Source: Thiogranum longum (lineage in GTDB: Bacteria > Pseudomonadota > Gammaproteobacteria > DSM-19610). From it: DNA of 64,000 bases. How positions within the stretch are numbered: the stretch's first letter is position 1; every line of letters starts with the position of its first letter. Position numbers and translations under genes: made by a program. The stretch covers positions 505,580-569,579 of the forward strand of contig NZ_SMFX01000001.1 in the NCBI RefSeq assembly GCF_004339085.1, written 5' to 3'. The notes under the pieces are model-generated. The model worked only from the letters and a program-made list of their open reading frames with translations, was not told where the DNA came from and made no database searches. Positions 28,988-35,435 of this stretch are shown here, piece after piece.

Positions 28988-30070
28988 ATGCTGGTCTATC
29001 TCGCCGATTACCTGAGCCAGTTCCATAGTGGTTTCAACGTCTTCCAGTACCTGACCTTGCGCGCCATTCTGGGTGTGCTGACAGCATTGTTACTGTCTTT
29101 CGTGGTCGGTCCTGTGATGATCCGTCAGTTGAGTTTTCGTCAGATCGGGCAGCAAGTGAGGGATGACGGCCCCGAGTCACATCTGTCCAAGGCCGGTACA
29201 CCGACCATGGGGGGTGCGCTGATCCTGGTAGCAATAGCGGTCTCTACACTTTTATGGGCCGACCTTGGTAATCGTTACATCTGGGTTGTGTTGCTGGTCA
29301 CATTGAGTTTCGGCGCCATCGGCTGGGTCGATGATTACCGCAAGATTGTCTACGGTAACAGCAAGGGGTTGTCTGCAGCAGCAAAATACAGCTGGCAGTC
29401 ACTGGCGGCAATCATTACAGGCCTGTATCTGTACTACGCTGCACAGTCCCCGGTGGAAACAGAGTTGATCGTGCCTTTCTTCAAGGACGTGGCGGTGCCA
29501 CTTGGCCTCTGGTACATCGTGCTGGTTTATTTCGTGGTGGTCGGTTCCAGTAATGCGGTTAACCTGACTGATGGCCTTGATGGGCTGGCAATTCTGCCCA
29601 CTGTACTGATTGCCGGTGCGCTGGCCGTGTTTGTGTATGCCACAGGTAATGTCTACTACGCCAAATACCTTGGCATTCCCTACATTCGTGAGGTGGGTGA
29701 AGTCGTGGTGTTTTGTGGCGCGATCGTCGGCGCCGGACTTGGTTTCCTGTGGTTCAACGCCTATCCCGCGCAGGTTTTCATGGGAGATGTAGGTGCCCTG
29801 GCGCTGGGCGCGGCACTTGGCACAGTTGCGGTCCTGGTGCGCCAGGAGCTGGTGTATTTTCTGATGGCCGGTGTGTTCGTCATGGAGACCGTGTCGGTCA
29901 TTCTGCAGGTGGCGTCATTCAAATTAACCGGGCGGCGTATTTTCCGCATGGCGCCGCTGCATCACCACTTTGAACTCAAAGGCTGGCCGGAGCCACGCGT
30001 TATTGTGCGCTTCTGGATTATCACGGTAATCCTGGTGCTGAGCGGTCTGGCGACGCTGAAGTTGCGCTGA
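28988..30070 (+). CDS. mraY: Phospho-MurNAc-pentapeptide transferase MraY
   Basis: The 360-residue polytopic enzyme (about ten membrane helices, same length as E. coli MraY) makes lipid I from UDP-MurNAc-pentapeptide and undecaprenyl phosphate. Conserved acidic motifs are GWVDDYRKI and [11 protein letters not shown], and the [11 protein letters not shown] motif stands near the C-terminus. The ATG at 28988 lies one base after the murF stop. A longer in-frame reading from 28880 overlaps murF and is not supported. Confidence 0.98.
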
Positions 30071-30081
30071 GAGGAGTATAG

Positions 30082-30156
30082 ATGGACGAGAAAAGTCAGA
30101 TTGTACTGGTGGGTTTGACCTTTGCGGTAATCGCCGTATTGCTGGTCATCCTTTGA
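30082..30156 (+). CDS. Possible 24-residue single-helix membrane protein
   Basis: A short ORF between mraY and murD begins with ATG 6 bases after a good GAGGAG Shine-Dalgarno and encodes 24 residues: MDEKSQ, then an almost fully hydrophobic run (IVLVGLTFAVIAVLLVIL) long enough to cross a membrane once, with a charged N-terminus. Without it the mraY-murD gap would be 104 bases, odd in a cluster where most genes overlap. I know of no described protein at this place in the dcw cluster. It may be real and act on MraY or the divisome, but expression is unproven. Confidence 0.5.
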   Translation: MDEKSQIVLVGLTFAVIAVLLVIL

Positions 30157-30174: not shown

Positions 30175-31539
30175 ATGTTGGCAGTAACAAACATCATGGA
30201 ACAGGACATGCAGCAGGTATTGCGTACTCTGGTGGTCGGACTCGGCACTACCGGTGTGTCGTGCGCGCGATTTCTGTCGCACATCGGTGTGCCGGTAGCG
30301 GTGACCGACAGTCGCGAGCAGCCCCCCGGACTGGAAACCCTGCAGCGGGAATTGCCTGATGTGGCCCTGTTCCTTGGCGGGTTCGACAAACAGGCGTTCG
30401 AACGGGCTGAGCGTATTGTGGTGAGTCCCGGTGTTTCATTGCGTGAACCGTTACTGGTCGATGCGCGAGCGCGTGGCGTGGAAGTGATCGGGGATATTGA
30501 ACTGTTTGCGCGGCATGCCAGCGCGCCGGTTATCGGTATCACAGGTTCCAATGGCAAGAGTACGGTGACCACACTACTGGGTCTTATGGCACAACAGGCA
30601 GGGCGTAGTGTTCGTGTCGGGGGAAACCTCGGTGTGCCGGCCCTTGATCTGCTTAAGGAGGACGAGCCGGACCTGTACGTGCTGGAATTATCCAGTTTTC
30701 AGCTGGAGACTGTGCAGAGCTTGTCATGCCTTGCAGCAGTCGTGCTGAATGTCAGCCCGGATCACATGGATCGTTATGACTCTCTTGGCGACTACGCAAA
30801 GGCCAAGCAGACCATCTTTCATCACGCCCGTTTGCAGGTGGTCAACCGTGACGATGAATATGCCGCGGCACTTGCCCATGAGCATGCGCCTGTAGTCAGT
30901 TTTGGCGTGACAGAGCCGAAAGGCAAAGACTACGGGCTGCGCACCATGGATGGTGAGATGTGGATTGCTTGTGGAGATACGGCATTAATGCCTGTTGCAG
31001 AACTGCGTATGCCGGGTCGTCATAACCTCGCCAATGCCTTGGCGGCGCTGGCGCTTGGCGCTGCAGCTGGTTTACCGGTTGAGGCGATGTTGCGAGCATT
31101 GCGTGAATTTCAGGGCCTGCCACACCGTACCGAGTGGGTGGGTGAGTACCAGGGCGTGCGCTGGTTCAATGATTCCAAGGCAACCAATATTGGCGCTGCA
31201 CTGGCCGCCATACAGGGCTTCGAGGGGCCGCTGGTATTGATCGCCGGTGGTCAGGGCAAAGGCGCAGACTTCACTGAGCTGGCAGCAGGGCTGGATGCGC
31301 GGGTACGCCATGTGGTGGTAATGGGTGAAGCGGCTGACGAAATTGAATCTGTATTGCAGGGACGTATTCCTGTCAGTCATGCAACTGACATGCAAGAGGC
31401 AGTCAGGCTCGCCGCAGCCCGGTCACAACCGGGGGATACTGTGCTTCTGTCACCGGCCTGTGCCAGTTTCGATATGTTCAGGGGATACCAGCACCGCGGT
31501 GAATGTTTCGTACAGGCATTGCGAGGTATGTTCGAATGA
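30175..31539 (+). CDS. murD: UDP-MurNAc-L-alanine:D-glutamate ligase
   Basis: The 454-residue Mur ligase adds D-glutamate to UDP-MurNAc-L-Ala. The N-terminal Rossmann-like part holds TLVVGLGTTGVSCARFL, the ATP loop GSNGKS is near residue 124, and the C-terminal domain has WFNDSKATNIGAA and a late LSPACASFDMFRGYQHRGE. The start is uncertain: ATG 30175, 30196 and 30208 are all in frame and none has a well-placed Shine-Dalgarno; the last gives a more usual N-terminus. The stop overlaps the ftsW start (ATGA). Confidence 0.97.
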   Translation: MLAVTNIMEQDMQQVLRTLVVGLGTTGVSCARFLSHIGVPVAVTDSREQPPGLETLQRELPDVALFLGGFDKQAFERAERIVVSPGVSLREPLLVDARARGVEVIGDIELFARHASAPVIGITGSNGKSTVTTLLGLMAQQAGRSVRVGGNLGVPALDLLKEDEPDLYVLELSSFQLETVQSLSCLAAVVLNVSPDHMDRYDSLGDYAKAKQTIFHHARLQVVNRDDEYAAALAHEHAPVVSFGVTEPKGKDYGLRTMDGEMWIACGDTALMPVAELRMPGRHNLANALAALALGAAAGLPVEAMLRALREFQGLPHRTEWVGEYQGVRWFNDSKATNIGAALAAIQGFEGPLVLIAGGQGKGADFTELAAGLDARVRHVVVMGEAADEIESVLQGRIPVSHATDMQEAVRLAAARSQPGDTVLLSPACASFDMFRGYQHRGECFVQALRGMFE

Positions 31540-32741
31540 GCCTGGCGCTGCTATTGCCCGATATGCCGGTACGTCGTGGTGCAGCCTGCCCGCGACTGGA
31601 TTTTGCCCTGCTTACCGCCGTAGCGATTTTGTTTTCCCTGGGGCTGGTCATGGTGGCATCAGCTTCCATGCCGGTTGCAGAGCGGCTCGGCGTCAGCACC
31701 TTGCATTTCACCATACGTCAAACGATATACCTGCTGATGGGGCTTGGGCTGGGGCTGCTGGTGTTGCGTATCAGGCTGGCCTGGTGGGAGCAGTGCAGCC
31801 TGTTGTGCATTTTGCTCGCTATCCTGATGTTAGTGGTTGTCCTGGTGCCGGGTGTCGGTGTTGAGGTAAACGGAAGTACCCGCTGGATCAATCTGGGAGT
31901 GTTCCGCCTGCAGGTGTCGGAGCCGGCCAAGTTGCTGGCACTGATCTACATGTCGGGTTACCTGGTGCGGCACGGTGAGGCAGTGCGTGAAACGCGTGCA
32001 GGCTTTATCAAGCCGCTGGCACTGTTACTGGTGGCGGCTGTCTTGCTGTTGGTAGAACCTGACTTTGGCGCGACTGTAGTCATGTTGGCGGCAGCCCTTG
32101 TGATGATGTTCATGGCCGGTGTCAGTTTGTGGAAGTTTGCTGCGCTGGTCGGTGTTGCTGTTGCTGGATTTGCCGCACTGGCCATTTCCTCTCCCTACCG
32201 TCTGGAGCGTCTGACAACATTCCTCAATCCATGGGCGGATCCGTTCAACAGCGGCTTCCAGCTGACCCAGTCACTGATTGCAATCGGTCGTGGCGAGTTA
32301 TTCGGCGTGGGTCTTGGCGCCAGTGTGCAGAAGCTGTTCTATTTACCGGAAGCGCATACGGATTTTGTATTTGCCGTGCTGGCCGAAGAGCTGGGCCTGG
32401 TTGGCATCCTGGTGCTGCTCGGCCTGTACCTGTTTATTGTGTTGCGCGCCTATCGTATTGCCTCTGTCGCTGAGCAAGGCGGCAATCTGTTTGCGGCCTA
32501 TCTCGCATATGGCATCGGAACCTGGTTGGGATTACAGGCATTGATCAATGTTGGCGTCAATACCGGCCTGCTTCCAACCAAGGGCCTGACGTTGCCGCTG
32601 ATGAGCTACGGGGGCAGTAGCATGCTGGTGACCTGCGTTGCCATTGCACTTTTATTGCGTATTGATTACGAAACACGTTGTACGGTCAACAGCCTGCCGG
32701 CTTCCGGGATATCCATGCATCCCCGCAGGAGGGTGCGATGA
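31536..32741 (+). CDS. ftsW: Septal peptidoglycan glycosyltransferase FtsW
   Basis: The 401-residue SEDS-family protein has about ten membrane helices and polymerises lipid II at the septum with FtsI. Family marks are the SGFQLTQSLIAIGRGELFG loop, YLPEAHTDFVFAVLAEELG and, near the end, LPLMSYGGSSM. I chose the ATG at 31536 because it overlaps the murD stop; an in-frame ATG at 31503 lies inside murD. The stop overlaps the murG start. Confidence 0.98.
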   Translation: MSLALLLPDMPVRRGAACPRLDFALLTAVAILFSLGLVMVASASMPVAERLGVSTLHFTIRQTIYLLMGLGLGLLVLRIRLAWWEQCSLLCILLAILMLVVVLVPGVGVEVNGSTRWINLGVFRLQVSEPAKLLALIYMSGYLVRHGEAVRETRAGFIKPLALLLVAAVLLLVEPDFGATVVMLAAALVMMFMAGVSLWKFAALVGVAVAGFAALAISSPYRLERLTTFLNPWADPFNSGFQLTQSLIAIGRGELFGVGLGASVQKLFYLPEAHTDFVFAVLAEELGLVGILVLLGLYLFIVLRAYRIASVAEQGGNLFAAYLAYGIGTWLGLQALINVGVNTGLLPTKGLTLPLMSYGGSSMLVTCVAIALLLRIDYETRCTVNSLPASGISMHPRRRVR

Positions 32742-33817: not shown

Positions 33818-35262
33818 TGACAGCACCACAGCAGCTGCCGGTGCAGTCAGAAACGATGGGACGTATCCGTTGTGCGCATTTTGTCGGTATTGGTGGTGCC
33901 GGTATGGGCGGGATCGCTGAAGTGTTGCTGAATCTGGGGTACAAGGTCAGTGGTTCCGACCTGCGTGAGAATGCTGTTACCCGGCGGCTGGCACTACAGG
34001 GCGCGCGTATCTGGTTTGGCCATGACGCGAGTCATGTCGCTGACTGCGACGTGGTCGTGGTATCTACAGCAGTTAATGAAGATAACCCGGAGGTCAGGGC
34101 GGCCCGTGAACGTCGTATCCCGGTAGTTCCGCGCGCCGAAATGCTGGCTGAGATCATGCGGTTCCGTCATGGCATTGCCGTCGCCGGAACACACGGCAAG
34201 ACGACAACGACCAGCCTGGTCGCCAGTCTGCTGGCAGAAGGCGGGCTGGATCCGACCTATGTTATTGGCGGTCGCCTTAACAGCTCAAACAGTCATGCGC
34301 GGCTGGGCAGCAGTCGATACCTGGTGGCCGAGGCTGACGAAAGTGATGCGTCATTCCTGTACCTGCAGCCCATGCTGGCGGTTGTTACAAATATAGACGC
34401 TGACCACCTGTCAACCTACGAGGGTGATTTCCGTCGCCTGCGCCAGACTTTTGTCGAGTTTTTACATCACCTGCCTTTCTATGGTCTGGCAGTAATGTGT
34501 GTCGATGATCCCAATGTACGGGACGTGCTGCCTGAGCTTACCCGCCAGGTGCGGAGTTACGGTATCGATGCCGAGGATGCCGATATCCGCGCTGTAAATC
34601 TGCGCCAGCAGGGGCAACAGATGTCCTTCGATATACACCAGAAGGACCACCCGGTACTGAGTGTTGTCCTTAATCTTCCGGGTCGGCATAACGTTCTGAA
34701 TGCCCTGGCGGCCGTTGCGGTGGCGCGTGAGCTGGATGTGGCGGATGCCGCTATCCAGCATGCGCTGGAAACATTTGAAGGGATCGGTCGGCGCTTCCAG
34801 ATCAACGGCGAAGTCGGGATCGAAGGCGGCTCGGTGCTGTTGATCGACGACTATGGTCATCATCCGCGGGAAATTGCAGCCACACTGGACGCGGTGCGTA
34901 ATGGCTGGCCTGAGCGGCGCCTGGTGGTAGCGTTCCAGCCTCATCGGTACAGCCGTACGTTTGACCTGTTCGACGACTTTGCACAGGAGCTGGTCAATTG
35001 TGACCTGTTGCTGATAACCGAGGTGTACGCAGCCGGCGAATCGCCTGTCACCGGTGCCGACGGGCGTGCCCTGTGCCGGGCGGTGCGCGGACGTGGCAGG
35101 GTTGACCCGGTGTTTGTCGAAGATGTTGAAACTCTGCCCTCTATTTTGAAGGACCTGCTTAAACCCGGTGACGTAGTGTTAACGCTTGGTGCCGGCTCCA
35201 TCGGCGCCGTAGCGGCGACCTTGCCGGCGGTGCTCGGTGACAATCAGGGAGTGGATGGATGA
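33814..35262 (+). CDS. murC: UDP-MurNAc:L-alanine ligase
   Basis: The 482-residue Mur ligase starts stem-peptide synthesis. It has the N-terminal [16 protein letters not shown] nucleotide loop, the ATP loop GTHGKTTTT near residue 125, and the [14 protein letters not shown] motif of the C-terminal domain. It overlaps murG by ATGA at its start. Its stop overlaps, again by ATGA, a 58-codon ORF that fills the gap to murB. Confidence 0.98.
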
Positions 35263-35435
35263 GTTCTGATAACGATCGAATGCGTTTTCACATGGGCTGC
35301 GGTGAACGCCTGCAAAGCCGTCGCTGGATTGTTCGATGCGTATCCGGGGTATTGCCGGGAAGCGAGATCAAGTCCGGGGCAAACATCGCGGGGCGTGAAC
35401 AACCCCGGCGTGAGGAGGATAGGGACGAATCATGA
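35259..35435 (+). CDS. Possible 58-residue protein between murC and murB
   Basis: An ATG overlapping the murC stop opens a 58-codon frame that runs through the whole gap and ends in a TGA overlapping the murB ATG, so both junctions are ATGA. The product is hydrophilic and arginine-rich (12 of 58 residues), with two cysteines (C14, C27) and no membrane segment. I do not recognise it. Against it: codon choice looks unbiased, with several CGA, GGA, GGG and AGG codons, and no Shine-Dalgarno beyond re-initiation. It could be a real small gene or a frame kept open only for translational coupling. Confidence 0.4.

Follow-up and report, generated by a model that had tools for sequence, protein, structure and literature searches.

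A small gene in the gap between mraY and murD

The window, by which we mean the whole stretch of 64,000 nucleotides of Thiogranum longum DNA that was analysed, contains a complete dcw cluster. Its genes follow one another in the order mraZ, rsmH, ftsL, ftsI, murE, murF, mraY, the small gene described here, murD, ftsW, murG, murC, a second small ORF, murB, ddl, ftsQ, ftsA and ftsZ. The gene ftsL was assigned by its position, and murG by its position together with matches in other clusters. The upstream neighbour of the small gene is mraY (28988..30070, + strand, 360 aa; Pfam Glycos_transf_4, 1.9e-33, and MraY_sig1), and the downstream neighbour is murD (30175..31539, + strand), with the Pfam Mur ligase domains. 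Both are universal genes of cell-wall synthesis, and they are followed by ftsW (31536..32741, + strand; Pfam FTSW_RODA_SPOVE, 1.1e-106), which codes for the second polytopic membrane protein of the operon.

The stop codon of mraY (TGA, 30068-30070) and the ATG of murD at 30175 leave a gap of 104 nt. The small gene occupies 30082..30156 on the + strand of this gap and encodes a 24-residue single-helix membrane protein, MDEKSQIVLVGLTFAVIAVLLVIL, followed by a TGA stop that lies 18 nt ahead of the first murD ATG. A charged or polar hexapeptide is followed by 18 hydrophobic residues, and a Shine-Dalgarno sequence, GAGGAG (30071..30076, + strand), stands 5 nt ahead of the ATG. These features, on which the first-pass annotation of the locus had been built, were all confirmed from the sequence. 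Such a gap is unusual: across 101 other mraY-murD junctions of Gammaproteobacteria the genes were separated by a median of 5 nt, a distance of at least 60 nt occurred in only 2, and a hydrophobic ORF of 18-60 aa was found in none. A search of Rfam gave no match for the gap, its fold was unremarkable (z 0.5), and it contained no terminator-like site; no promoter-like site was found near it.

Another small gene, of 58 aa, lies in the murC-murB gap of the same cluster (window 35259-35435, + strand), where its ATG overlaps the murC stop and its TGA overlaps the murB start. Of the 20 genomes examined from the window's family, 18 have an ORF of 52-58 aa in this position that carries the N-terminal motif (R)xHMGCGEPLxSR. 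Matches to it also occurred about 5 kb beyond mraY in family f122, and weaker ones in families f35, f132 and f124; in Pfam and NCBIfam it had no convincing match.

Conservation, selection and history of the small gene

The small gene was looked for in the window genome and 19 relatives of the same GTDB family, 16 of the same genus and three from two further genera. It was present at the mraY-murD site with its frame intact in all 20 genomes. A second, order-level lineage was represented by 11 genomes, of which 10 also have it at this site, which gives 30 of 31 genomes overall. The exception, G389 of the second order, lacks the small gene, and its murD begins 15 nt behind mraY. Each carrier genome has one copy, and no copy was found away from mraY-murD.

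Most copies in the window's family are 24 codons long and a few have 25 or 27 codons, with the family consensus MDEKSQIAxVGVTFAVIAVLLVLL; copies of the second order again have 24 codons, for example MDVRYQMKIVGLTFLVMSVFWLLV and MDLRIQMKIVGLTFLLMSLLWLVL. Over all carriers the small proteins measure 24-27 aa, form a single strongly hydrophobic helix (Kyte-Doolittle mean over 17 residues about 2.2-3.3), and are always encoded directly after mraY. In nearly all carriers the gene starts 7-17 nt past the mraY stop, with a G-rich or A/G-rich leader ahead of its ATG. The distance from its stop to the first murD ATG is 2-25 nt in most relatives and 55 nt in one. While these flanking spacers vary, no indel was found inside the small gene apart from its C-terminal end. 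In one genome only (L021, G017), the longer spacer from the small ORF to murD contains a near-perfect inverted repeat, GTACGAACATGCACCGTGCATGTTCGTAC.

A profile built from the window's family only was run, without positional guidance, on 369 genomes spread over the class. The only other strong matches came from two genomes of family f122, in the second order (E 8.6e-7 and 2.3e-4); a third match had an E-value of 0.08, and all three lay directly 3' of mraY. When 30 loci with profile matches were examined, mraY adjoined only those of the two carrier lineages. Weak matches elsewhere in the class (E 4e-4 and above) were partial and lay inside longer frames, and were rejected as homologues. A profile made from both lineages found no relatives in about 397-398 other genomes of the phylum.

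Substitutions in the small gene showed the pattern of purifying selection on a peptide. In the window's family dN was about 0.22 and dS about 1.47, and the mean pairwise differences at codon positions 1, 2 and 3 were 0.30, 0.10 and 0.53. The pN/pS ratio was 0.28 against a mean of 0.89 for column shuffles, with none of 1000 shuffles as low, and only 0.7% of the shuffles were free of stop codons. The signal was weaker in the second lineage alone (pN/pS 0.62 against a shuffle mean of 1.07; 1 of 1000 as low). Since the peptide is conserved with near-saturated synonymous sites and the RNA tests were negative, what selection keeps is, on this comparative evidence, the amino acid sequence and not RNA. 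A conserved reading frame in the gap of related genomes and a bias toward synonymous sites had been proposed as checks on the ORF, and frame-breaking indels as grounds for dismissing it; the first two were found and the last were not. We consider it nearly certain, judging from these alignments, that the ORF is a selected protein-coding gene.

In a tree of MraY, MurD, FtsW and MurG, both carrier lineages fell in one clade with support 100/100, although its inner branching is only partly resolved. Families f153 and f83 fall in this clade but lack the small gene. The simplest account of this distribution would be a single gain at the base of the clade followed by a few losses. Because of these losses among clade members, the small gene is, as far as its distribution tells, useful but dispensable.

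Two observations were made on the sampled genomes themselves. Genome G346, a member of the class, has two mraY-like genes (contigs C14 and C154), which share 74% and 73% identity with the MraY of the window. In a tree of MraY and MurD, a contig (L038) that bears the title of a Klebsiella pneumoniae MAG falls among unrelated MAGs of Gammaproteobacteria, and its label is probably wrong.

The small protein as a possible partner of MraY

The small-protein members and their profile had no meaningful match in Pfam, NCBIfam, PHROGs or PDB sequences. No resemblance to the phage E protein, which the first-pass annotation had cited as an inhibitor of MraY, or to any viral family was found: tblastn found no phage relatives at E-values up to 10, and the PHROGs matches were weak and scattered only. 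Phage origin and membership in the protein E family were therefore rejected, as there was no sequence relation to phage lysis proteins. Membership in the MgtR family (NF033229) was also rejected, because a score of 17.7 bits against a cut-off of 35 was reached by 1 of 27 members and nothing by the others, and this likeness is one of composition only. A search of the open-access literature found no description of a small gene between mraY and murD. These results are best read to mean that the gene belongs to a new and apparently undescribed family, restricted to this clade, of small single-helix membrane proteins encoded within an operon.

Conservation within the peptide follows one side of the predicted helix. 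In both lineages M1 and Q6 are invariant, V10 and F14 nearly invariant, and T13, I/M17 and L/W21 strongly biased. Conservation was periodic, with an angle of 98-100 degrees per residue. The p-value was 0.0035 over all copies and 0.011 in the window's family; in the second lineage by itself the periodicity did not reach significance (p 0.24). The conserved face consists of Q6, V10, T13, F14, I17, L21 and L24. Such face-wise conservation is the pattern that would be expected of a helix packing on a specific partner. In the second lineage, Arg and Lys in the N-terminal tail suggest an N-in topology by the positive-inside rule; the tail of the window's lineage is of mixed charge, and the topology there is less clear.

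Since selection keeps the gene in 30 of 31 genomes of two lineages, the small protein probably serves the neighbouring membrane-bound cell-wall machinery. A partnership with MraY, MurG or the divisome is plausible on the basis of the operon position, the spacing for co-translation and the conserved helix face, and MraY, as the product of the gene just upstream, is the first candidate. Our preferred reading, which we put forward tentatively and as possible, is an accessory helix for MraY, with a stabilising or tuning effect on it. The small protein would be a single-pass inner-membrane protein. Because its start lies so shortly past the mraY stop, ribosomes coming off the mraY frame may go on to translate it, and the two proteins could meet during membrane insertion. 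Insertion would be N-in/C-out. The C-terminus of MraY is periplasmic, and a read-through fusion to MraY would place the helix on the wrong side. The face formed by Q6, V10, T13, F14, I17 and L21 might then pack against one of the polytopic enzymes of the lipid I/II pathway, in a groove of, most likely, the newly made MraY, and this packing may stabilise MraY or tune its activity, by analogy with CydX, KdpF and AcrZ. That MraY can be controlled through its membrane region is known from phage protein E, and a supported model holds that externalised lipid II in the MraY dimer interface acts as a control (PMC10914600). A more specific and rather doubtful form of the proposal is that lipid I synthesis in this clade is set by the small protein, which would act on MraY as a native single-helix subunit or regulator and be a host-side counterpart of the inhibitor E.

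Residues specific to carriers did not point to one protein. They made up 2 of 233 conserved positions in MraY (0.9%), 6 of 176 in MurD (3.4%), 6 of 194 in FtsW (3.1%) and 3 of 178 in MurG (1.7%), so that the share was lowest in MraY and no signature naming a partner stood out among the four. When the clade was scanned by itself, single positions scattered over FtsW and MurG turned up. FtsW L134 and MurG T126 were isolated among 720 columns and confounded by ancestry. Of the first-pass proposal of an undescribed small partner of MraY, MurG or the divisome, the undescribed small membrane protein thus stands, but the partner was not singled out by the residue scan. It also speaks against MraY that G389, f153 and f83 lack the gene yet have an ordinary-looking MraY.

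Part of these data would also fit a helix that accompanies another membrane component (FtsW-FtsI, FtsQLB, or MurG/MurJ at the membrane), with the slot after mraY merely convenient. FtsW, encoded two genes downstream, is the operon's other polytopic protein and the alternative partner, and it differs in the carrier lineages at L134 (22 of 22 carriers examined; elsewhere mostly F or A) and T329 (20 of 22; elsewhere hydrophobic). Both residues are, however, also present in the gene-less G389, so the pattern may be plain ancestry, and we regard this alternative as unlikely, if worth keeping in mind. It is less probable still that the peptide is a free-standing small membrane protein outside cell-wall synthesis, such as a protease adaptor or a stress or lipid-sensing peptide, riding on a strong constitutive operon. 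Reviews describe many small bacterial membrane proteins with roles in transport or stress, and one carrier peptide is weakly MgtR-like below the threshold, but in all genomes searched the small gene was found only between mraY and murD, which points to a link with its neighbours.

Two further explanations would assign no function to the peptide. A cis-acting translated spacer or leader might couple murD translation to mraY, as the closeness of the small-gene stop to the first murD ATG in most carriers would allow, and in G005, G011 and G019 murD has no clear Shine-Dalgarno sequence after the small gene. This is improbable, since conserved amino acids beside near-saturated synonymous sites contradict an idle peptide, most genomes manage with a few nucleotides between mraY and murD, and the gap was negative in the RNA tests for fold, Rfam families and terminators. 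As short hydrophobic ORFs arise easily, a chance ORF would be a natural suspicion from a single genome. In 30 genomes from two orders, however, the frame is conserved, under selection and free of indels, and the 101 other junctions hold nothing alike; this leaves a chance ORF hardly any probability, and it was excluded on these comparative data.

The dcw cluster is among the best-studied bacterial operons, yet it contains a selected gene outside all family libraries used here. If the peptide binds MraY, as we prefer to think, it would show how the first membrane step of peptidoglycan synthesis, an antibiotic target, is tuned in some cells, and it would mark a natural helix-binding groove on MraY. 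Should FtsW or some other protein turn out to be the partner, the finding would still mean that selected genes can lie hidden in the short spacers of core operons. With thirty carriers and a few natural losses, the question is open to direct testing.

Comparison with known small membrane proteins

Several small membrane proteins resemble the small protein in some respects. YohP and YkgR of E. coli (27 and 33 aa) belong to the same size class but to other genes and another context, and homology is not claimed; the example of YohP shows that SRP, with SecYEG or YidC, can insert a protein as short as 27 aa (PMC7549839). MgtR of Salmonella is likewise a single hydrophobic helix, with which one carrier peptide aligns over 17 residues (E 0.0025), but its gene context is different and the score lies below the family cut-off, as given above.

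Protein E of phiX174 acts on MraY through a membrane helix, as is proposed for the small protein. Protein E serves the phage in lysis, depends on SlyD and works via helix 9 of MraY (PMC10914600; PMC11812184). In contrast, the small gene belongs to the chromosome and is conserved there; no phage relative of it could be detected, and the Arg-Trp-x-x-Trp motif that has been reported for E is missing from it.

CydX and, by analogy, KdpF and AcrZ differ from the small protein in sequence, without any match, and in operon. CydX moreover pairs with a co-varying feature of its enzyme, the CydA Q-loop, and no such feature was found in MraY. These proteins nevertheless share with the small protein a very small size, a single hydrophobic helix and few conserved residues. 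CydX and KdpF are encoded in their enzyme's own operon, and the CydX gene, which has a ribosome-binding site to itself, lies directly 3' of the genes for the enzyme (PMC4325964), as the small gene here lies directly after mraY. Like these subunits, the small protein is a single hydrophobic helix of less than about 50 aa from the operon of a membrane enzyme. By this analogy, the CydX type of operon-encoded single-helix subunit is the closest kind to the small protein encoded between mraY and murD.
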